This document shows positions 13,177 through 26,622 of a DNA stretch of 46,006 nt, piece by piece (position 1 is the stretch's first letter; the number at the start of each line of letters is the position of its first letter). Origin of the DNA: Deltaproteobacteria bacterium (lineage in GTDB: Bacteria > Desulfobacterota > Desulfobulbia > Desulfobulbales > JAJRZW01); the NCBI GenBank assembly GCA_024275015.1, contig JAJRZW010000046.1, forward strand, positions 1 through 46,006, read 5' to 3'. The notes beneath the pieces are model-generated. The model saw only the letters and a program-made list of their open reading frames with translations. It had not been told where the DNA came from and ran no database searches. A program made the translations under genes and the position numbers.

Positions 13177-14625
13177 TTACGGTTCAATCCCGCATTTTCC
13201 TCCCGGGGCCGCGAGGGGGCAGGTGGTCGGGGTCAGGGATACTCCCGGATCAATTGCTCTGAGGTTTTCACTTTTTTTTATCACCGCTTCGGTGATTTCC
13301 CGGGCCCGGCCCACATGTTTTTCCGGGACAGTGACCCGGCGTAGTTCCTCTACCGTGAACAGCCCGGCAGTCTCTTGCTGGCGGATCACGGTTTCAAGAA
13401 ATGATTCCCGGGATTCCCGCGCCGCCATTGCCGCCCGGTAGAGTATTTCATGGGCCTTCTTTTTCCCTGTCCTGGCGGCAATTAAGAACATTAACGCCTC
13501 AGAGCCGACAAGACAAGCGTTCATGTCAAGATTACGTTCCATTTCCTTCCGATGGACGATCAGGCCCTTGAGGATTTTTGTTATCTGGTCAAGGGCCGCG
13601 GCGAGGTACATGGAACTGTCGGTTATCGAGACCCATTCGACCCTCACGGCCCGATAGTCGCGTTCGTGTTCGTTGATCAGGGTATCAAGACCGGCGGCGG
13701 CGGTGGCCTTTAAAAGTTTGGCCAGCACCACCACCTGTTCGCATTGTTCCGGGTTGCGTTTGTGCGGCATGGTGGTGCTGCCGATCTTGCCCAGGTGAAA
13801 GGGTTCCTCCATCTAGCCGATTTCGTCCCGGGAGAGCTGGCAGATTTCGTTGGCTATTTTGCCGAGGCTGCCGCCGATCAGGGCGAACAGGGATGTGACC
13901 TCGGCCATTCGGTCGCGGGATGAGTGCCAGCAGGTATCCGGGACCTTGAGATCAAGACGGGCGGCAAAGTCACGCAGCAGTTCTTCCCGTTCGCCGGTGA
14001 AGGCGCTCATGGTTCCGACGCCGCCGAAGAGCTGGCAGACCAGGACCCTCGGCGCGGTTTCACTGAGCCGTTGCCGGTGGCGCAGGAGTTCATCAAGCCA
14101 GACCGCGAACTTAAGCCCTAAAGTGGTGGGCAGGGCCGGCTGCCCGTGGGTCCGGCCTACGACCAGGGTGTCGCGGCCGGCAAAGGCCAGTCTCGCGACC
14201 TCGCGGATAACGAGGTCAAGATCGCGAACGATGATCGCCAGTGTGTCTTTGAGCTCAAGAACCTGGGCCGAGTCCTGTATATCCTGGGTGGTGGCGCCGA
14301 AATGGATGTATCCCGCCGCCTCTTCGTCGCTTAAGCGGTGCCATTGATCCAACAGCGGGATAAGGGAGTGGTTGGTCTCTTCTATCCCCCGGCTGATCGC
14401 TTCGAGGTTGAAACGGGAAAGATCAGCGGACGCGGCCAGGGCCTCGGCCGCGTCCGCCGGGATCATTCCCAGCCCGGCCTGGCTTTCGGCCAGGGCGACC
14501 TCGACCGCGAGCCAGCGGGTCATGCGGCGATAGGGGCAGAAAACCGCGCTGATCTCGTCGGTGGTGTAGCCCCCGCGATAGAACGGTGAGCAGGTGATAT
14601 GGGATACGGCCTTGGCGCAGCTCAT
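13177..14625 (-). CDS. Adenylosuccinate-lyase/cycloisomerase family lyase, frame interrupted by one in-frame TAG
   Basis: A member of the fumarase/aspartase superfamily, whose enzymes eliminate fumarate (or open lactones) from C-N or C-O substrates. The first 270 codons carry the N-terminal signature (SPFYRGGYTTDEISAVF), FGATTQDIQDSA and GRTHGQPALPTTLG. After the TAG at 13813-13815 (codon 271) the same frame continues with MEEPF, the catalytic-loop signature GSTTMPHKRNP at codons 282-292, and a complete C-terminal domain to a TAA. Overall length is 482 codons, somewhat above the usual 435-460. In the paralogue next door the TAG position is Glu (VGELAEP). Substrate is uncertain: 3-carboxymuconate cycloisomerase-like and adenylosuccinate lyase are both possible. 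Confidence 0.85.
13813..13815 (-). other. In-frame TAG codon inside the first lyase gene
   Basis: The minus strand reads GAA ATC GGC TAG ATG GAG GAA CCC. In related lyases the TAG position is usually Glu, and one G-to-T change from GAG would create it. An ATG follows at once, but a protein started there would lack the N-terminal domain and half of the active site. Confidence 0.95.
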
Positions 14626-17468: not shown

Positions 17469-18032
17469 TCATTTGATTCCCTCGCCTTCAGCATCAACCC
17501 TTACCTCGCGTTCAACGTCTCCCTCCACGAAAGCCCTGATCATCGGCGTTTCGGGTCTGACCATGGCGATAATAAACATCAACAACCGGCTGTCGCGGCC
17601 GAGGATGGTGTCGAGCAGGGTGGGGGTGTCGCGGTGAGGGTCTTCTTCCCACGCGACCCGGTGCATATGGTAGGTGCCGATAATTCTCAGGCCTTCATCC
17701 CGCAGAAGGCTGACCACGCCCCGTAACTCTTCGGGGTCGGCCACCCAGCCGCGACCGGAAAGAGGGGTCTCGGAGGGCACGGCGTATCGTGTCAGCTGTC
17801 GGTCCATGGCCTCGCGGTAAGGGGAGATGTTGCGGACATTGCGTCGCAGTTCAATTACCCTGGTCACGGCTGCCACCCGGCCGTGAATCCGACCGCCGAC
17901 AACCCCGAATGCCTTGGGCCGGGGCTCTTCACCGGCGAGGTATCGTCCGTCCAGTTTCCGCCGGCAATGCTTCAGAAGGTCACGGCGGACATCGGCGGGG
18001 ATAATGATTCTGTCAATGAGATCGGGATTCAT
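17469..18032 (-). CDS. JAMM/Mov34-fold protein with variant zinc motif
   Basis: A 187-residue stand-alone JAB/MPN-like protein. The expected zinc motif is His-x-His-x7-Ser-x2-Asp; here His122 and His124 (YHMHRV) are followed by Pro132 in place of Ser and Asp135. The upstream glutamate of the motif is not obvious: the segment RPKAFGVVGG has Lys where a Glu is usual. JAMM proteins cleave isopeptide bonds or act in sulphur-carrier processing, but no ThiS/MoaD-like partner is here. The gene is transcribed with the amino-acid dehydrogenase (gap of a few bases). Activity is uncertain given the substitutions. Stop is TGA. Confidence 0.75.
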   Translation of the reverse strand: MNPDLIDRIIIPADVRRDLLKHCRRKLDGRYLAGEEPRPKAFGVVGGRIHGRVAAVTRVIELRRNVRNISPYREAMDRQLTRYAVPSETPLSGRGWVADPEELRGVVSLLRDEGLRIIGTYHMHRVAWEEDPHRDTPTLLDTILGRDSRLLMFIIAMVRPETPMIRAFVEGDVEREVRVDAEGEGIK

Positions 18033-18224: not shown

Positions 18225-18702
18225 GTCTTTTTTTGTCATAAATCAGGCCGTAATTTGTCAGTTTTGCCCGATTGAGCGGGAAGGGGGTGGCAGAAAAATA
18301 AACTCGTCAGCCCCGCGAAAGCTGGAATCATCCCGCTATCCTCTGATCTTTCAAGTCAGGGACAGGTAGAGGCCCATTTATTGCATAAGATAAACTGAAA
18401 TAAACAATTAATAATCAAAATTTTCAGTTTTTCAGTATTTTTCCGATGTTTTTCGGTCAGGAGGTTTTCCGGGTTGACTGCGTGAGTCGGTTTGTGTTAT
18501 ATAGATTAAAGGAGTTTTTTAAAAAAGGGCCTTGGTTAAACGGCTTTTTTATGTTGTGAATTTTTGTTTTTCCGGTGATTCCATGGGGTTGTTCCGTGGG
18601 CTCCGGTTGTTCCTGGTAATTTTTGGTTTGTGTTTTGGGGGGGGCGTCGCGGTCGCGATGTCCGAAACGAAGTAAAGCAGTATGAATCAAGGGGGATGCA
18701 TG
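18225..18702 (+). other. Upstream region and leader of the multihaem cytochrome gene
   Basis: About 480 bp without a gene. From left to right: a GC-rich remnant near 18306-18330; an AT-rich inverted repeat (AAACTGAAA at 18392-18400 with TTTTCAGTTT at 18421-18430); the candidate promoter at 18474-18503; and a leader of roughly 190 nt. The leader includes a possible A/T-flanked stem at 18521-18550 (AAAAAAG with CTTTTTT around a GC core) and a G-run at 18643-18650. AAGGGGGA at 18689-18696 is the ribosome-binding site. No conserved GEMM riboswitch core was seen. Confidence 0.5.
18474..18503 (+). promoter_or_regulatory. Candidate sigma-70 promoter of the multihaem cytochrome gene
   Basis: TTGACT (one mismatch to the -35 consensus) at 18474-18479 and TATATA at 18498-18503 are 18 bp apart. 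They are the best pair in the region and lie about 200 bp before the start codon. Assigned by pattern only. Confidence 0.45.
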
Positions 18703-21700
18703 ATGAAGAGGCTGGCCTTTATAGCTGGTCTGCTGCTGCTCGTCGCGGCAGTGACCTCCGGTAGCGCCCGGGCCTATTATCTGGACGCGCCGCACAATGA
18801 GTCGAATGGCTTTACCTGTCGGACCTGTCATTCCAGTTCGTATGCAGCCGGTTCGAAACTTTACGGGTATACCGGCTCAGGGATTGACGATACGGCAAGG
18901 AATGCCCTCTGCCTGGTCTGCCATGACGGAACCAATGATGGTGGTTTGGGTGAGGTTGCCGCGCCGTCCAAGGTTCTGCATTCGTCCGCGGCAATGGGTA
19001 CGGCTTCTCACGCCACCACCGCCTGGACCACCCAGTGTACCGACTGTCATGATCCCCATTACCAGGCCCAGCTTGACTGGGCAGCGGCTGACGGCGGCAA
19101 GCTCTGGCTTGCCACTGGCACGGTTAACGGTGCTCCGACTCCTGTCGCCGCACCCACCGGTGGCCCGGCCGGGTCAACCATCATTAGCTATACCAGTATC
19201 GCCGGGCAGAATATCGGCGGGATCGACTGGTCACAGTTCAGCAACTGGACAAATAAAGGTGGTCTTGTAGACCCACTGCGGGCCACAGATGGTACCCGCG
19301 GTCTGATTCTGGTCCCCGACACCTCTTCTTCCAAAGATTCATTTGAAATCATCGCCGCCGATGCCACGACGATCACTGTCAAAGGCCAGATGAGCGCCAC
19401 TTCCGGCGCCACCTTCGGTATTATGTATGGCGACAATATCCGTTCCACCGTCAAGAACGCCGAGACCTATTCCGGAGCCGGTTCTATGGCGCGGACGGTA
19501 AAGTTTTTTGTCCCCAACGTTATTGCCAACGATTACGGCGGATTTGTCGACGAACGGGCGGTTAACACTCCCGTCGGTCTCTGTCAGGTATGTCATCCCC
19601 CCTATGTCGCCGGGGTCAGCCCGACTGATAATCACTGGAATACCAACAACTCAGGTGATAAGCATAACGCCACCGCCCGCTGTACCCAATGTCACAATCC
19701 CCTGGCCGCGTTCGCCGGCGGTGCTGATCATACCGCCAAGATCGTGGTCTATACCGGTAGTGTCACGCCCAGCGGCGGCGGCACCGCGGTCGCGGTTAAT
19801 TGCGACGACTGCCACAGTGACGTCAGCGCCGCTCCTGATTCCGCCCATCTCAACCGCGGCGCGGTCAACGCCAGTGCCGGCTCCACCGCTCCCATCTCCG
19901 ACGGCACCGGCTGCGGCGCCTGTCATGACACCGCTACTTCATCCCTTAATGGTAATATTGCCATAACCCGTCTTGGGCTGGCCGATGCCAACTTTGGTAC
20001 CGGTACCTATCCGGTTGACTGTTCCGCCTGTCATCCCAATAACCCCCAGGCCGTAGCCGACGGCACCCACGGCGGCCATTCCTCTTCCGCGTTTGGATGG
20101 GATTCCAATTGCGCCACCTGTCATCCCGACAACGGCGGCGGGGTGGTCAAGGACGTCCATAACAACAACTGTCTCAACTGTCATGACAATTCCAGCGGCG
20201 GCACCGGCACCACCATCCTCGGCAGCAGCGCCAACGGGGTTGACGGTGATGCCCGTACTTCAACCAATGGCGGTCCGGTCACCTCCGGTTCGACCCACAG
20301 CGAGACCTGTACTTCCTGTCATGGTATCGGCACCACCAATTCGATTCCCGATGCCCATCATCTCGCCTCAACCAATAATTACGCCCAGAACGGCGTCTGC
20401 ACCCAGTGCCATGATTCGTCAACCGCCAAGGCCACGGCCACTAACGGCGCCGGTAACCCGGCCGATCATTCCGGCCTCATAGCCGATTACACCAACTGCA
20501 CCAATTGCCATAGCGCCAATGTCGGCACCTCTCAGGGCGCGGTCATCGACTCGTCGACCAACAAGGTGCACGACTCCTGCGTGGCCTGCCACAACACCGA
20601 TTCCAGTCTCAAGACCCTGTCGCAGGTTGATACCACAAGGGTCGTTGCCATGCCCAATCCGGGTTCGGCCAGCAACGACGGCGGCGGCACCTGCGCCGCC
20701 TGTCATGGCGAGTACTTTCCGAACCATCAGAATATCGACCATGCCACCAGTCTGGTGACCAAGAGCGCCAATTGCGCCAACTGTCATAATGCCGCTCCCA
20801 CCGGCGCGGCCCGGGCCGCGGCCACTTCACCGTTCACCGGTACTGGTGAGGTTCATGCCACCAATACCTGTAGCACCTACCATCAGGCCACCGGCGTTCT
20901 GGTTGCGGCCACCTCTCTCGCCCCCGGCATCGCCGCTGGCGGCGGCACCTGCGAGACCTGCCATCTCGGCGGCGCACTGCCTAATACCTGGCAGTCAATT
21001 CATACCGCCGCTCCCGGCGTGAGCCATGGCACCAAGGTTACCCTGGCTGCCAATTGTGACGGTTGTCATACTACTATTACTCCCGGCGCCAGTGCTGCCG
21101 CTCGTGATGCGCTCACCGCGCCCTTTGTCGGCACCGGCGAGGTCCATAACACCAGTAACTGCGCCACCTGCCACGACACCACCACCGGCCTGACCAAGGC
21201 CGCTTCCGGTCTGGCCGTGGCCATCAGCCAGGGTGACTGTGAGACTTGTCATATCAGTACCAGCCAGACCTGGACCGGTATTCACAGCAGCGCCGCCGGC
21301 GTGAGCCACAGCAGCCGGGTGGATCTGGTCGCGCCGTGCTCCAACTGTCACGGCAACAATATTGCCGGTTCCGGTGCCAGGGACGCTATAACCGCGCCGT
21401 TCACCGGCTCGGGTGAGGTGCATTCCGGCAGCGGCTGTGCGACCTGCCATAACACCACTGACGGTTCCACGTTGACCAGCGGCTATACCAAAGCTGATAC
21501 GATAGCTGCCGGTGACTGTAGCACCTGCCATACCCAGACCTCCACCTGGCAGAGCATCCATGACGGCGCGAGCGGTGTTGATCACTCCACCAGGGTGTAC
21601 AACAACAGCCTCTGCGGTTCCTGCCACGACACCACCGCCGGCGGCAACGCCCCCGACGCCATCACCCCGCCCTATGTGGGCAGCGGCGAGGCCCACGCCA

Positions 21701-24700
21701 CCAACCGTTGTGATTCCTGCCACAACGCCAACGGCGGCACCCTGACCGTTGCCGCTCCCGGCGGCTCCGGCAACATCGCCGCCGGTGACTGCCAGAGCTG
21801 TCACGACCAGTACTTTGGCGCCCATCAGCACGACCACAGTGCCAGCGTGATCGTCACCTCTTCCTGTGCGTCCTGCCACGCGGCCGACACCGCTTCGCGG
21901 CCGGCGACATCTCAGGCCCTGCTTGCTTCCACCGCTCCGTTTGTGGCCGCGGGTGAGGTGCACAGCGCAAGCAGCTGCGCCACCTGCCACAACACCACCA
22001 CGGATGGTTCCCTGCGGGCCGGCACGGTTGGCGACGCCACCGTTTCCGCCGGTGCCGACGGCAAGTGGGAATGCGCCGAGTGTCACGCCAGCCAGTGGGA
22101 TTCGCTCCACGGCGGTGTGGCTACCACGGTCCATGACATAAGTGCCACCTCCTCCTGCGCCAACTGCCACGGCAACGCGGTGGCGGGTTCCAACGCCCGT
22201 GACGCGGTGACCGCGCCTTACGTTGCCTCCGGCGAGGTACACAACGACGGCGCCGGCACCACCTGCGCCACCTGTCATAACGTCACCACCGGCGCCCGGA
22301 TCACCGGCGCCAACGGCAAGGGCGATGCCACCGTTTCCGACGGCGGCGACGGCACCTGGGTCTGCGCCGAGTGCCACACCGCCACCTGGTATGTCCTGCA
22401 CATGAACTCCGCCAGTGACGGCGCCGCCTCCGGCGTTGATCACAGCGGCCGGGTGGATATCTATTCCGACGGCACCTACGGTTCCTGTGCCAACTGCCAC
22501 ACCGGCACCGCCGGCGGCGCAAGCGGCCTGATGCCGGTGAACAGCGGTGACGACAAGGTCCATGACGCCTGTACCGTCTGCCACGCCTCCGACGGCACGG
22601 TCAGCGGCACCACCACCTACGGCGGCAAGACCCTCGCGGCCGGAAACTGCTCCACCTGCCACGGCGCCTACTTCGACAGCCACGTCCACGGTCAGGACGG
22701 CGGCTATGTCGACCATGACGTGGTGTTCAACGCCTCGGTTGACATCTCCCAGACCGGCGGCGCGAGTAATTCCTGTTATAACTGTCACGATGACGCCGGT
22801 CTCGGCAAGGGTAGCGGTGCTCTCGGGACCTGGGCCGCGATCAAGACCGAGCATGCCACGGTTGGCGGCACTGCCCAGGCCTCGGCCTGCGCCACCTGCC
22901 ATGACTATGCCACCAACGGCAACCAGAGCGGTGACGCGGATACGCCGCTGCTCGCCACGGTCCAGACGGTTATCTCTTCCGGCACCGGCAACACCTGTAT
23001 TTCCTGCCACGTGCCCAAGAGCTATGCCGACAGCCCGTCCACTTCGCAGCACGGCGGTCACAGCGCGGCCGACTTCGGCTCTGACGCCCAGTGTACCACC
23101 TGTCATAATGACGGCGGCAAGGGGGTTGTGGAAGGCATCCACAACAACAACTGTCTGACCTGCCATACCAGCGCCTCCGGCGGTCTGACCACCGTAAGGT
23201 TCGACGGCGGCAACGCCGGGGTTGACTCCACCAACGGGGTTGACGCCGATCCGAGCCTTGCCATCAGCAGCGGCGCCCACAAGTCAACCACCTGTCTCGG
23301 TTGTCACAATATCAGTTCCGGCAATGTGGACGCCACCTCGGTGGGTGGTATTCATCACAACAGCGCCACCTACGGCGTGCTGAGCACCTCGACCCCGAGC
23401 GCCACCTGCGGGAACTGCCATACCGCGGTCGATCATACCGCGATGATCAAGGATACCCCGGGTGACTGTAACAGCTGTCATACCAACACTGCCGCGTCCG
23501 CCGGGGTCAACCCGCCGATCAGCGGCACCCTGGGCGATCCCAAGGTCCATGACGACTGCACCACCTGCCATGCCTTTGCCGGTAGCGGATGGAACGGTCA
23601 GCTTATCAGCCTGCCCAGTCCGCGCGGTCTGGTCTACGCCATGCCCGACGGCGGCACCATCGGCGGCACCGACGGCGGCGGCGACTGCGCCAACTGTCAT
23701 GACGCCACGGCCAAGAAGAGCCTGCATCATGGCTCAAGCCTGGCCACCGGCGGACAGTGCCAGGTGTGTCATGTCAACTCTGATACCAGCGGGGTGAATT
23801 CGGCCACGGCCCCGCCGCAGCTGGCCTGTCAGACCTGTCATGTGGACAACAGCAACGGTCTTGACATTATCAGTCTGCGGCTGAGCAAGTTGAGCGGTTC
23901 ACGGCCCAATCATCTGGAGAACAAGAACGCTAACCTCGGCAATGCCACAACCGATGGCAATGGTTTTGTCAGCACCCATAGTTTTACGGCTGCCTCAATA
24001 ACCGTGCAGGACTACCGCGCTTGTTTCTCCTGTCATAACGGCTCTTACCCGAACGCTCCGGTTGTCGTGCCGTTCCACGGCTTCCCGGGTGATCAGGCCA
24101 ATAATGACATCATGGCAAGCAACGCCAATATGCACACCAATATCGACGGGTCAAAGCTGCTGGTTGACGAGAGCAGTGGCGACAATATCCCGAGATACTC
24201 CATGTACTATCATCCTGGTCATATCAATTTCCGCCGGTTCAACACCAAGACCAACGGAACCAAGCTGTACGACCGGGGCGGCAAGAACGGCATCGGCGGC
24301 TATAACGAGCGTGGGTATGAAGACGGCAAGTACTTCACCACCGGCATGAGCTCGACCACTAACAGCGCCGCCAACGCCATACTCCAGGATATCCAGGAGA
24401 GCAAGAAAACGGTTCCGGATGACCTGGGCAACAATATCGACTTCGGTAATATCTTTGGCAAGAACAGTAGCCAGTTCGGTCAGACCAAGTCCACCAAGGG
24501 ATACAGCCTGACCTTTAACGCCAAGTTCACCAACTTCTCAACTCCGAGCGCCTCGAGCGGAATCGGGTATGGCGAACTGAACAACATTCCGTACTTCACC
24601 GCCCTTGCCCCGCCCAACGACCGGGTGTTCGTCAACTCGGCCGAGGTCAATACGAGCGGCAACCTGGTTGTCATTGCCGGCAACGACGAGGGCTGCAACA

Positions 24701-26562
24701 AGCTCACCGTGAAGGAGAGCGGCGGAAGCACTTACGGCAGCATGACCCTTAACGCCACCACCGGTTACTGCGAGCTGACCACCGCGGTCAGCGCGGTTCC
24801 GGCCGCGGTTGACGTGAGCAGTTCCGGCACCGGCACTCCGAGCGTGACCAATTATCCGGTCACCGACAACTCGGTCCAGCCGGGCACCATCACCCTGTCC
24901 GCCTCCACCTACTCGGTGAACGAGAACGGCGGCTCGGTGACCATTACGGTTAACCGCACCGGCGGATCGGGCGCGGTCACGGTCGATTACGCCACCAGCA
25001 ACGGTTCGGCAACGGCCGGCTCTGATTATACCGCCGCCTCCGGCACCCTGAGCTGGGCCGACGGCGACACCGCCGCCAAGACCTTTACCGTCTCTATCAT
25101 CAACGACACTTTGCAGGAGGGTGACGAGACGGTAAACATTGCCCTGTCCAACGCCACCGGCGGCGCCTCGCTCGGCACCCCGGGCAGCGCGGTGCTGACC
25201 ATTGTTGACGATGACCAGCCGGGTACCCTCTCCTTTGAACTGGGTTCCTACTCGGTCAGCGAGGGTGGCGGCTCAATCACCATCAATGTGACCAGGACCG
25301 CGGGTTCTGTCGGCGCGGTCGACGTCAGCTACGCCACCAGCGACGGCTCCGCCACCACCGCCGGCAACGACTATACCGCGACTTCCGGCACCCTGAGCTG
25401 GATTGACGGCGACACCGCCAGCAAGTCGTTCACCGTGACCATTCTCCAGGATACCGTGGTCGAGGGCGACGAGACCGTCAACCTGACCTTGTCGTCTGCC
25501 ACCGGCGGCGCGTCCATCGGCGGCACCAACCCGGTCACCCTGACCATTGTTGATGACGACAACTCGCCGCCGGCTTTCGGCAGCCCGACCTACACCGCCA
25601 GCCCGAACGCCACCGAGGGCAGCGCCTATACCACCACCACCATGGTGGGCGCGGCCACTGATCCGGAGGGTGACGCGATCACCTATGGTGACGCGGGCAC
25701 CGGTTCCTGTACCTGGACCAGCGTGGCAACGGACGGCACCATCACCGGCACCGCCCCGAGCGGTTCCGGCGGCACGAGCTGCACGGTTGACGTGACCGCC
25801 ACCGCCACCGGCGGCAGCGACACCGCGACGCTGACCATCAATATTGATGCGGCGCCTACGGCCATGAGTGGTGACGGCGGCCAGACGGTTGACGGTATCT
25901 TCCCGGGTGACAATTTCACCAGCAGTGACACTAATGTCTCGGTTACCGTCACCTTCACCACCGCCAACGCCGGTGACAAGAATAACTACTGGACCTTGTA
26001 CGACGAGGCCCAGAACGGCAGTACGTTGTGTGCTGGCACCTTCTCCTCCGGTGACGGCGGCAATACCTGGACCGCCTCGGTTGATTTTAGCCAGTGCGGC
26101 GGTTACACAGGCGTCGCCTTCATGGAGTACGGGATCGAGGACAACACCACTGGTGACAAGTTCAAGATCAAGTACCTGCCGATCACCCTCGGCAGCACCA
26201 GCGAGTACCTCAAGACCTTCAGCGACAGCGGGTACAGCAACGAGACCACCTCGTTTAATTCCAACGACATGGTCTATGTCGAGGTCAACAGTGCCGCGGT
26301 TCACAATATACTTAACGGCACCTGCGACGGCACCCAGGCCGCCAAGCTGGCCGGGTTCGATGACACCAAGTACATCGACAAGCTCGACTTCAGTTCGTGT
26401 AGCTATGAAGGCGGCAATGTCTACCGCTGGAGCTTTGATCTCAGTCAGCAGTCCATTACTTTCCCGACCGGCACCTACTGGTACCAGGGTGAGATGAAAC
26501 CTGCCGACAGCAGTGGCAATAGTAATATCAAGGTCGGTTTGGTAATCCAGGTCACCAAGTAA
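18703..26562 (+). CDS. Giant secreted multihaem c-type cytochrome (48 CxxCH motifs) with Calx-beta domains
   Basis: About 2,619 residues. The start at 18703 is preferred because AAGGGGGA lies seven bases upstream and a clean signal peptide follows (MKRLAFIAGLLLLVAAV, cleavage near SARA). By hand count there are 48 CxxCH haem-attachment motifs between residues 39 and 1778, plus one damaged motif (CSTYH at 20869-20883). A haem-free insert of about 170 residues separates motifs 3 and 4. An array of six modules of about 91 residues, each starting near TAPF-x-GSGEVH, lies at 20.8-22.5 kb. The C-terminal 550 residues have two Calx-beta domains (SVNENGGSVTITV, SVSEGGGSITINV), an Ig/cadherin-like domain and an unassigned end domain. 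The likely role is extracellular electron transfer, inferred from haem number and export. Confidence 0.95.
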   Translation: MKRLAFIAGLLLLVAAVTSGSARAYYLDAPHNESNGFTCRTCHSSSYAAGSKLYGYTGSGIDDTARNALCLVCHDGTNDGGLGEVAAPSKVLHSSAAMGTASHATTAWTTQCTDCHDPHYQAQLDWAAADGGKLWLATGTVNGAPTPVAAPTGGPAGSTIISYTSIAGQNIGGIDWSQFSNWTNKGGLVDPLRATDGTRGLILVPDTSSSKDSFEIIAADATTITVKGQMSATSGATFGIMYGDNIRSTVKNAETYSGAGSMARTVKFFVPNVIANDYGGFVDERAVNTPVGLCQVCHPPYVAGVSPTDNHWNTNNSGDKHNATARCTQCHNPLAAFAGGADHTAKIVVYTGSVTPSGGGTAVAVNCDDCHSDVSAAPDSAHLNRGAVNASAGSTAPISDGTGCGACHDTATSSLNGNIAITRLGLADANFGTGTYPVDCSACHPNNPQAVADGTHGGHSSSAFGWDSNCATCHPDNGGGVVKDVHNNNCLNCHDNSSGGTGTTILGSSANGVDGDARTSTNGGPVTSGSTHSETCTSCHGIGTTNSIPDAHHLASTNNYAQNGVCTQCHDSSTAKATATNGAGNPADHSGLIADYTNCTNCHSANVGTSQGAVIDSSTNKVHDSCVACHNTDSSLKTLSQVDTTRVVAMPNPGSASNDGGGTCAACHGEYFPNHQNIDHATSLVTKSANCANCHNAAPTGAARAAATSPFTGTGEVHATNTCSTYHQATGVLVAATSLAPGIAAGGGTCETCHLGGALPNTWQSIHTAAPGVSHGTKVTLAANCDGCHTTITPGASAAARDALTAPFVGTGEVHNTSNCATCHDTTTGLTKAASGLAVAISQGDCETCHISTSQTWTGIHSSAAGVSHSSRVDLVAPCSNCHGNNIAGSGARDAITAPFTGSGEVHSGSGCATCHNTTDGSTLTSGYTKADTIAAGDCSTCHTQTSTWQSIHDGASGVDHSTRVYNNSLCGSCHDTTAGGNAPDAITPPYVGSGEAHATNRCDSCHNANGGTLTVAAPGGSGNIAAGDCQSCHDQYFGAHQHDHSASVIVTSSCASCHAADTASRPATSQALLASTAPFVAAGEVHSASSCATCHNTTTDGSLRAGTVGDATVSAGADGKWECAECHASQWDSLHGGVATTVHDISATSSCANCHGNAVAGSNARDAVTAPYVASGEVHNDGAGTTCATCHNVTTGARITGANGKGDATVSDGGDGTWVCAECHTATWYVLHMNSASDGAASGVDHSGRVDIYSDGTYGSCANCHTGTAGGASGLMPVNSGDDKVHDACTVCHASDGTVSGTTTYGGKTLAAGNCSTCHGAYFDSHVHGQDGGYVDHDVVFNASVDISQTGGASNSCYNCHDDAGLGKGSGALGTWAAIKTEHATVGGTAQASACATCHDYATNGNQSGDADTPLLATVQTVISSGTGNTCISCHVPKSYADSPSTSQHGGHSAADFGSDAQCTTCHNDGGKGVVEGIHNNNCLTCHTSASGGLTTVRFDGGNAGVDSTNGVDADPSLAISSGAHKSTTCLGCHNISSGNVDATSVGGIHHNSATYGVLSTSTPSATCGNCHTAVDHTAMIKDTPGDCNSCHTNTAASAGVNPPISGTLGDPKVHDDCTTCHAFAGSGWNGQLISLPSPRGLVYAMPDGGTIGGTDGGGDCANCHDATAKKSLHHGSSLATGGQCQVCHVNSDTSGVNSATAPPQLACQTCHVDNSNGLDIISLRLSKLSGSRPNHLENKNANLGNATTDGNGFVSTHSFTAASITVQDYRACFSCHNGSYPNAPVVVPFHGFPGDQANNDIMASNANMHTNIDGSKLLVDESSGDNIPRYSMYYHPGHINFRRFNTKTNGTKLYDRGGKNGIGGYNERGYEDGKYFTTGMSSTTNSAANAILQDIQESKKTVPDDLGNNIDFGNIFGKNSSQFGQTKSTKGYSLTFNAKFTNFSTPSASSGIGYGELNNIPYFTALAPPNDRVFVNSAEVNTSGNLVVIAGNDEGCNKLTVKESGGSTYGSMTLNATTGYCELTTAVSAVPAAVDVSSSGTGTPSVTNYPVTDNSVQPGTITLSASTYSVNENGGSVTITVNRTGGSGAVTVDYATSNGSATAGSDYTAASGTLSWADGDTAAKTFTVSIINDTLQEGDETVNIALSNATGGASLGTPGSAVLTIVDDDQPGTLSFELGSYSVSEGGGSITINVTRTAGSVGAVDVSYATSDGSATTAGNDYTATSGTLSWIDGDTASKSFTVTILQDTVVEGDETVNLTLSSATGGASIGGTNPVTLTIVDDDNSPPAFGSPTYTASPNATEGSAYTTTTMVGAATDPEGDAITYGDAGTGSCTWTSVATDGTITGTAPSGSGGTSCTVDVTATATGGSDTATLTINIDAAPTAMSGDGGQTVDGIFPGDNFTSSDTNVSVTVTFTTANAGDKNNYWTLYDEAQNGSTLCAGTFSSGDGGNTWTASVDFSQCGGYTGVAFMEYGIEDNTTGDKFKIKYLPITLGSTSEYLKTFSDSGYSNETTSFNSNDMVYVEVNSAAVHNILNGTCDGTQAAKLAGFDDTKYIDKLDFSSCSYEGGNVYRWSFDLSQQSITFPTGTYWYQGEMKPADSSGNSNIKVGLVIQVTK
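20824..22485 (+). repeat. Repeated module array within the cytochrome gene
   Basis: Six related modules begin near 20824, 21115, 21391, 21664, 21931 and 22210 (spacings of 267-291 bp, about 91 residues). Each opens with T(A/S/P)P(F/Y), then G(E)VH or G(E)AH before a CxxCH, and usually contains two or three haem motifs. Similarity is clear in protein and moderate in DNA, so the array is not very recent. Confidence 0.8.
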
Positions 26563-26588
26563 ACCTCAACCTGTCATAAGACAGTCAA

Positions 26589-26622
26589 CCCCGGTGGAAC
26601 CAGTCTCCACCGGGGTTTTTTT
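26589..26622 (+). terminator. Rho-independent terminator of the cytochrome gene
   Basis: CCCCGGTGGA (26589-26598) pairs perfectly with TCCACCGGGG (26606-26615) across a seven-base loop and is followed by seven T residues. It starts 27 bp after the TAA stop codon. Confidence 0.95.

Follow-up and report, generated by a model that had tools for sequence, protein, structure and literature searches.

Introduction

Giant cytochromes are already known from the literature, as are cytochromes joined to S-layer or fibronectin domains (PMC9012536, PMC7327174, PMC10553843). In archaea they include the S-layer-fused giants MHC-A and MHC-B of ANME and the MHCs of Methanoperedenaceae, with up to 113 haems (PMC9012536, PMC7327174); in bacteria, a report on activated sludge describes giants with up to 112 haems from Saprospiraceae and Paludibaculum (PMC11495043). 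Porin-cytochrome conduits and OmcS-like filaments have been described in the sulfate-reducing partners of methanotrophic archaea, and a role in partner recognition has been suggested for OetF, a fibronectin-domain cytochrome that syntrophic sulfate reducers encode close to their OetABI conduit (PMC10553843). Such conduits and OmcS-like filaments are also described for iron-reducing Desulfurivibrionaceae (PMC12545173). How electroactive bacteria choose and hold an electron partner is an open question in the field.

Here, we analyse a giant cytochrome gene in a 46,006-nucleotide stretch (hereafter the window; contig JAJRZW010000046.1 of assembly GCA_024275015.1) from a member of the Desulfobulbales, in which a conserved haem array is joined to a Calx-beta stalk and to a tip that appears to have been exchanged relative to its closest relative.

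Results and discussion

An intact, monocistronic gene for a predicted 48-haem protein

The gene occupies positions 18703–26562 (coordinates refer to the forward strand of the window unless stated otherwise), within a frame that opens at 18682 and runs to 26562 with no internal stop, and it is a single intact ORF. The likeliest start is the ATG at 18703, with an alternative at 18700 and a GGGGGA ribosome-binding site just 5′; the codons upstream of the preferred start are also open in the orthologue described below. From 18703, the chain has 2,619 residues, in line with the figure of about 2,600 in the initial annotation; residue numbers used here are counted from 18682. Its N-terminus reads as a Sec signal peptide (18703–18774), MKRLAFIAGLLLLVAAVTSGSARA, followed by YYLDAPH after a probable cleavage site at SARA (residue 31). 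The peptide contains no lipobox, is kept in the orthologue and has a similar counterpart in a 32-haem paralogue, and it agrees with the earlier prediction of an exported chain. Downstream, an intrinsic terminator can be read directly at 26588–26622 (ACCCCGGTGGA-loop-TCCACCGGGGT, followed by a T run); since this terminator is strong and the 5′ gene lies on the opposite strand, the giant cytochrome forms a single-gene unit, unlinked to the conduit-like gene cluster found elsewhere in the genome.

A recount of CxxCH motifs, a value well below 48 being what the initial annotation had named as a refutation, gives exactly 48 (18817–24036; residues 46–1785), against a mean of 0.18 and a maximum of 2 in 1,000 shuffles of the same protein. 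The first five belong to an N-terminal module (18775–19728; residues 32–349), within which a haem-free insert of 182 residues separates motifs 3 and 4. Further on, an eight-haem block (block A, haems 7–14; 19912–20691) is duplicated as block A′ (haems 37–44; 22888–23685), three-haem segments of the two aligning with scores of up to 209, where the 95% level of the background is 80. Between the two copies stand tandem trihaem repeats of about 95 residues each (haems 15–33; 20692–22569; segment scores of up to 244). One further motif has decayed to CSTYH (20869–20883; residues 730–734), and is CATCH in the orthologue. There are 59 non-motif histidines before residue 1860 for the 48 haems, and Pfam places Cytochrome_C7 in 19 stretches (224.6 bits; cut-off 24.8). 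The protein thus has what a multihaem c-type cytochrome should have: many CxxCH motifs, a signal peptide, a cytochrome domain above cut-off and sufficient ligands for each haem.

It does not qualify for any of the more specific families that were compared, scoring 43.3 bits against the 209.3 required for the OmcA/MtrC decahaem family (TIGR03507), 74.4 against 192.2 for the DmsE decahaem family (TIGR03508) and 17.5 against 40 for the nanowire_3heme domain (TIGR04257); nor is there an S-layer family among its Pfam matches. In a sequence search of the PDB, the only match to the haem part was 3oue, a ‘cytochrome c family protein’ (E 5.9e-4), with none to the OmcS-type filament 6ef8 or to other filament structures.

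Purifying selection acts on the haem ligands

When genome contigs were scanned with the giant cytochrome, one true orthologue was recovered, along with two weak matches to the C-terminal region. The orthologue is encoded by a congeneric MAG, deposited as ‘Desulfobacterales bacterium’ (JALWTY010000132.1; loci L040/L043), and likewise carries 48 CxxCH motifs, of which 47 are common to both proteins; at one site where the window protein has CxxCH, it has CX4CH. Across the core of 2,392 residues, the two are 70% identical (dN 0.24, dS 0.82, dN/dS about 0.3), and within the haem region 96 of the 98 Cys (98%), all 48 motif His (100%) and 53 of the 59 other His (90%) are identical. The gene is, therefore, under purifying selection that is concentrated on the haem ligands. 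Because 53 of the 59 non-motif His are conserved, bis-His ligation would be possible for all 48 haems, and nearly all potential axial ligands are retained; the gene is, to judge from its sequence, functional.

A Calx-beta stalk and an apparently exchanged tip

The haem array is followed by a haem-free connecting region with no domain assignment (24112–24867; residues 1811–2062), which lies partly in a segment (residues 1826–2320) that is about 50% conserved in the giants of genome G018. Two Calx-beta domains come next (PF03160; 24877–25215 and 25216–25560), the pair spanning residues 2066–2293 and scoring 153.6 bits in Pfam against a cut-off of 27. They align with the CBD1–CBD2 pair of NCX1 (PDB code: 3us9; E 4e-27), keeping the E, DDD and acidic residues of the calcium sites, and on both these grounds the protein is predicted to be a Calx-beta surface protein. 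An Ig-like domain (He_PIG/Big_9; 25591–25845) is 90% identical in the orthologue, although the match itself is weak and below the cut-off (19.6 versus 24 bits for He_PIG). The chain closes with a species-specific tip (25858–26559; residues 2393–2626), the DNA of which has a GC content of 55.7%, as against 62.5% for the haem part and 66.1% for the Calx-Ig part. A two-domain repeat within the tip was considered and rejected (z about 0.5). Alignment-free AlphaFold2 modelling gave no confident structure, with a mean pLDDT of 39 for residues 1809–2626 and 52 for the tip alone. The architecture given in the initial annotation (a Calx-beta pair followed by an Ig-like and an unassigned terminal domain) is thus recovered, with the Ig-like match falling below its cut-off; the fusion of these parts to an electron-transfer array, also claimed there, is real, and both the haem part and the stalk are conserved by selection.

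The tip behaves differently. Identity to the orthologue is 86–90% across the Calx-beta and Ig-like domains and then, after residue 2392, the sequences abruptly become unalignable, the window tip being replaced by unrelated sequence. The window tip has no match among the 257 other genomes of the order. The Ig-plus-tip cassette of the orthologue (residues 2293–2623) recurs once, with 68% identity, in another family (genome G010, locus L139), where it terminates a haem-free stretch of cadherin/Ig-type repeats (typed by eye) in a gene whose start lies beyond the contig. From these two species and one donor-like locus, we infer that the tip has been exchanged, rather than a count of events. The NCX1 alignment, together with a cassette that caps cadherin/Ig repeats elsewhere, makes it plausible that the tail mediates calcium-dependent surface attachment, as the initial annotation proposed.

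Giant cytochromes across the order

The homologue search proposed in the initial annotation returned, in addition to the orthologue, matches to the N-terminal module in 43 of the 258 genomes of the order, for which this module is a signature; when 395 genomes drawn evenly from the whole phylum were examined, matches outside the order were few and weak. Among the frames that were read, several carry 51–67 haems (L053, L047, L048, L097, L108, L099, L103 and L052), and one of these (L097) also has cadherin/Big_9 domains, with a sub-threshold fn3 match in another (L108). Other frames combine 12–33 haems with long haem-free tails, some of which contain 3–14 Calx-beta domains (L044, L045, L046 and L112); in some relatives, 12–24 haems precede haem-free tails of about 1,600–3,600 residues. 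Two of the giants can be set out individually: that at L044 4049–14155 has 31 haems followed by at least 14 Calx-beta domains, and that at L045 5001–14612 has 24 haems followed by at least 11.

At the upper extreme, joining L095 and L096 (genome G018, contig C173; 3–25409, reverse strand) gives a frame that runs without interruption for 8,469 residues or more and contains at least 252 CxxCH motifs; it begins with a signal peptide and is open at the contig end, and no repeated 40-mers were found in its DNA. Given the recurrence of 51–67-haem frames and this single frame of at least 252, the 48 haems of the window protein are high, but not exceptional in the order. The earlier description of its haem number as far above that of common multihaem cytochromes holds, therefore, for cytochromes in general and does not hold within the order. 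The published maximum that we found is 113 haems per chain (PMC7327174), and the order exceeds it through this one frame.

Neighbouring genes and candidate partners

The gene order around the giant is common to the genome of the orthologue (G001) and partly to that of a member of another family (G008), where it flanks a 58-haem giant. A conserved, divergent neighbour (17469–18032, reverse strand) encodes a protein of 187 residues that contains the motif GTYHMH, looks JAMM-like on inspection and has no Pfam match; the gene holds the same position beside the giants in both genomes (L043 11011–11559; L048 10241–10789). A Glu/Leu dehydrogenase-like gene accompanies this neighbour beside giants in three genomes. 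Genes for secreted proteins with CarboxypepD_reg and right-handed beta-helix domains adjoin giants of relatives (L043 11550–13598; L046 1486–3963; L048 10925–13032) and are absent beside the window giant. A Lyase_1-family gene of the window (13177–14625, reverse strand) is apparently split into two adjacent frames (13177–13812 and 13813–14625), its counterpart in L043 (16617–18062) being one frame; a frameshift, an in-frame stop or a sequencing error are possible causes.

The genome itself is a draft MAG of 76 contigs. It encodes DsrA, two GspD secretins above cut-off, three cytochrome-assembly matches and a 32-haem paralogue that shares its N-terminus with the giant (L029 4731–9893). The gene for this paralogue overlaps by about 30 bases with a 1,586-residue fn3/beta-propeller gene (L029 1–4761), which is cut by the contig end. 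The initial annotation had also recommended a search for outer-membrane conduit genes; a porin-cytochrome-like cluster is present on another contig (C14; L030/L031). Its genes encode a PPIase, an apparent lipoprotein with 26 haems, a cytochrome with 16, an NHL propeller, an OmcS homologue and a barrel-like protein of 700 residues. When an OmcS match was sought for two cytochromes of the cluster, one matched (E 1.4e-7) and the other did not. The gene set would fit the OetABI layout of a candidate barrel, an extracellular lipoprotein cytochrome and a periplasmic cytochrome, and the cluster resembles, in its predicted products, published porin-cytochrome conduits and OmcS-like filaments (PMC10553843; PMC12545173); the barrel and the OetABI identity have candidate status. 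The barrel-like protein is conserved in 32 of 58 relatives and giant homologues occur in 25 of the 58, without strict co-occurrence of the two.

Proposed function

On balance, we lean towards a secreted, outer-surface multihaem cytochrome, in which an electron-hopping array would be carried with a calcium-stiffened stalk and an exchanged recognition tip. The haems would be loaded in the periplasm by the cytochrome c maturation system and the folded protein exported by type II secretion, which is an assumption for a cytochrome of 2,600 residues. Electrons would then enter from the porin-cytochrome conduit of the genome, from OmcS-like filaments, or from both, and hop along (or be stored in) the haem array at the cell surface, while the Calx-beta/Ig stalk, stiffened by calcium, would present the tip. 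By binding a species-specific target (a partner cell, a mineral or the matrix), the tip would place the haem chain against an electron acceptor or donor. In OmcS, six haems occupy about 4.7 nm; packed in the same manner, 48 haems would perhaps span less than 40 nm, to which the tail might add some 20 nm. The reach of one molecule would, therefore, be roughly 40–60 nm, enough to cross surface layers or to link cells in contact but not to extend over micrometres, and the long distances of the initial annotation should read tens of nanometres per molecule.

Some of the evidence could be read otherwise. The haem number is far above the need of a bridge, and a single chain in one relative carries at least 252, which would suit a capacitor that stores electrons on the cell surface or inside the periplasm, buffering the cell when acceptors run out, with the adhesive tail as a matrix anchor only; such roles have been suggested for proteins with more than 100 haems (PMC11495043). 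We regard this as rather unlikely, as it leaves the exchange of tips between sister species on a conserved stalk unexplained, but storage and conduction are not mutually exclusive. That the protein is mainly an adhesin, its haem array a long stiff spacer or poorly loaded and electron transfer secondary, is suggested by those relatives in which few haems precede very long haem-free tails; in the window protein, however, conservation is highest at the haem ligands, and we consider this account improbable. The repetitive haem array, and the OmcS homologue elsewhere in the genome, might instead point to a polymerizing nanowire subunit akin to OmcS, OmcE or OmcZ. Against this, the haem part matches only 3oue among known structures, and a large, one-ended Calx-beta/Ig/tip tail would be unlike a stacking subunit, making such a role highly improbable. 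As for an assembly artefact or a decaying gene, the draft state of the MAG and the one decayed motif give it little weight beside the dN/dS value, the clean terminator and, above all, the presence of this gene, among neighbours in matching order, in an independent MAG (L040/L043), by which it is already refuted.

If the preferred reading, that of a tip-bearing surface cytochrome, is extended to the relatives, the order may, as a tentative proposal that we hold with less than even confidence, possess a series of ‘electro-adhesins’ whose haem arrays range in size from 12 to at least 252 and in many cases sit on calcium-binding or cadherin-like stalks, and in which recombining tip cassettes would set the choice of partner or mineral while the wire is conserved.

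Comparison with known systems

We found no paper describing a fusion of a multihaem cytochrome with Calx-beta domains, spelling variants and subscription journals being outside the scope of the search; what most merits following is the apparently exchanged tip, together with the series of giants across the order. A conserved haem array combined with an apparent exchange of tips between sister species would offer a natural test of partner choice.

The haem part most resembles 3oue, which we take to be GSU1996, the trihaem-domain ‘nanowire’ cytochrome of Geobacter: both are chains of c7-like trihaem units. The whole of that protein has 12 haems, whereas the window protein has 48, in a more complex order of repeats, and an adhesive tail that 3oue lacks. 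The tandem Calx-beta pair is shared with NCX1, which is an animal exchanger and not a functional relative. Like the activated-sludge giants, the window protein is a very large multihaem chain that would be secreted; those giants belong to other phyla, and adhesion domains are not described for them in the accessible portion of the report (PMC11495043). The MHCs of ANME and Methanoperedenaceae, proposed to act in extracellular electron transfer, likewise combine very many haems per exported chain with non-haem surface domains; they are, however, archaeal and have S-layer domains and transmembrane anchors, whereas the window protein has a Calx-beta/Ig/tip tail and no visible anchor, and comes from a Gram-negative bacterium with DsrA. 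OetF, from related bacteria, also joins a cytochrome to an adhesion-type domain; the window protein differs from it in the type of that domain, in its 48 haems, in being unlinked to conduit genes and in a tip that appears to have been exchanged.
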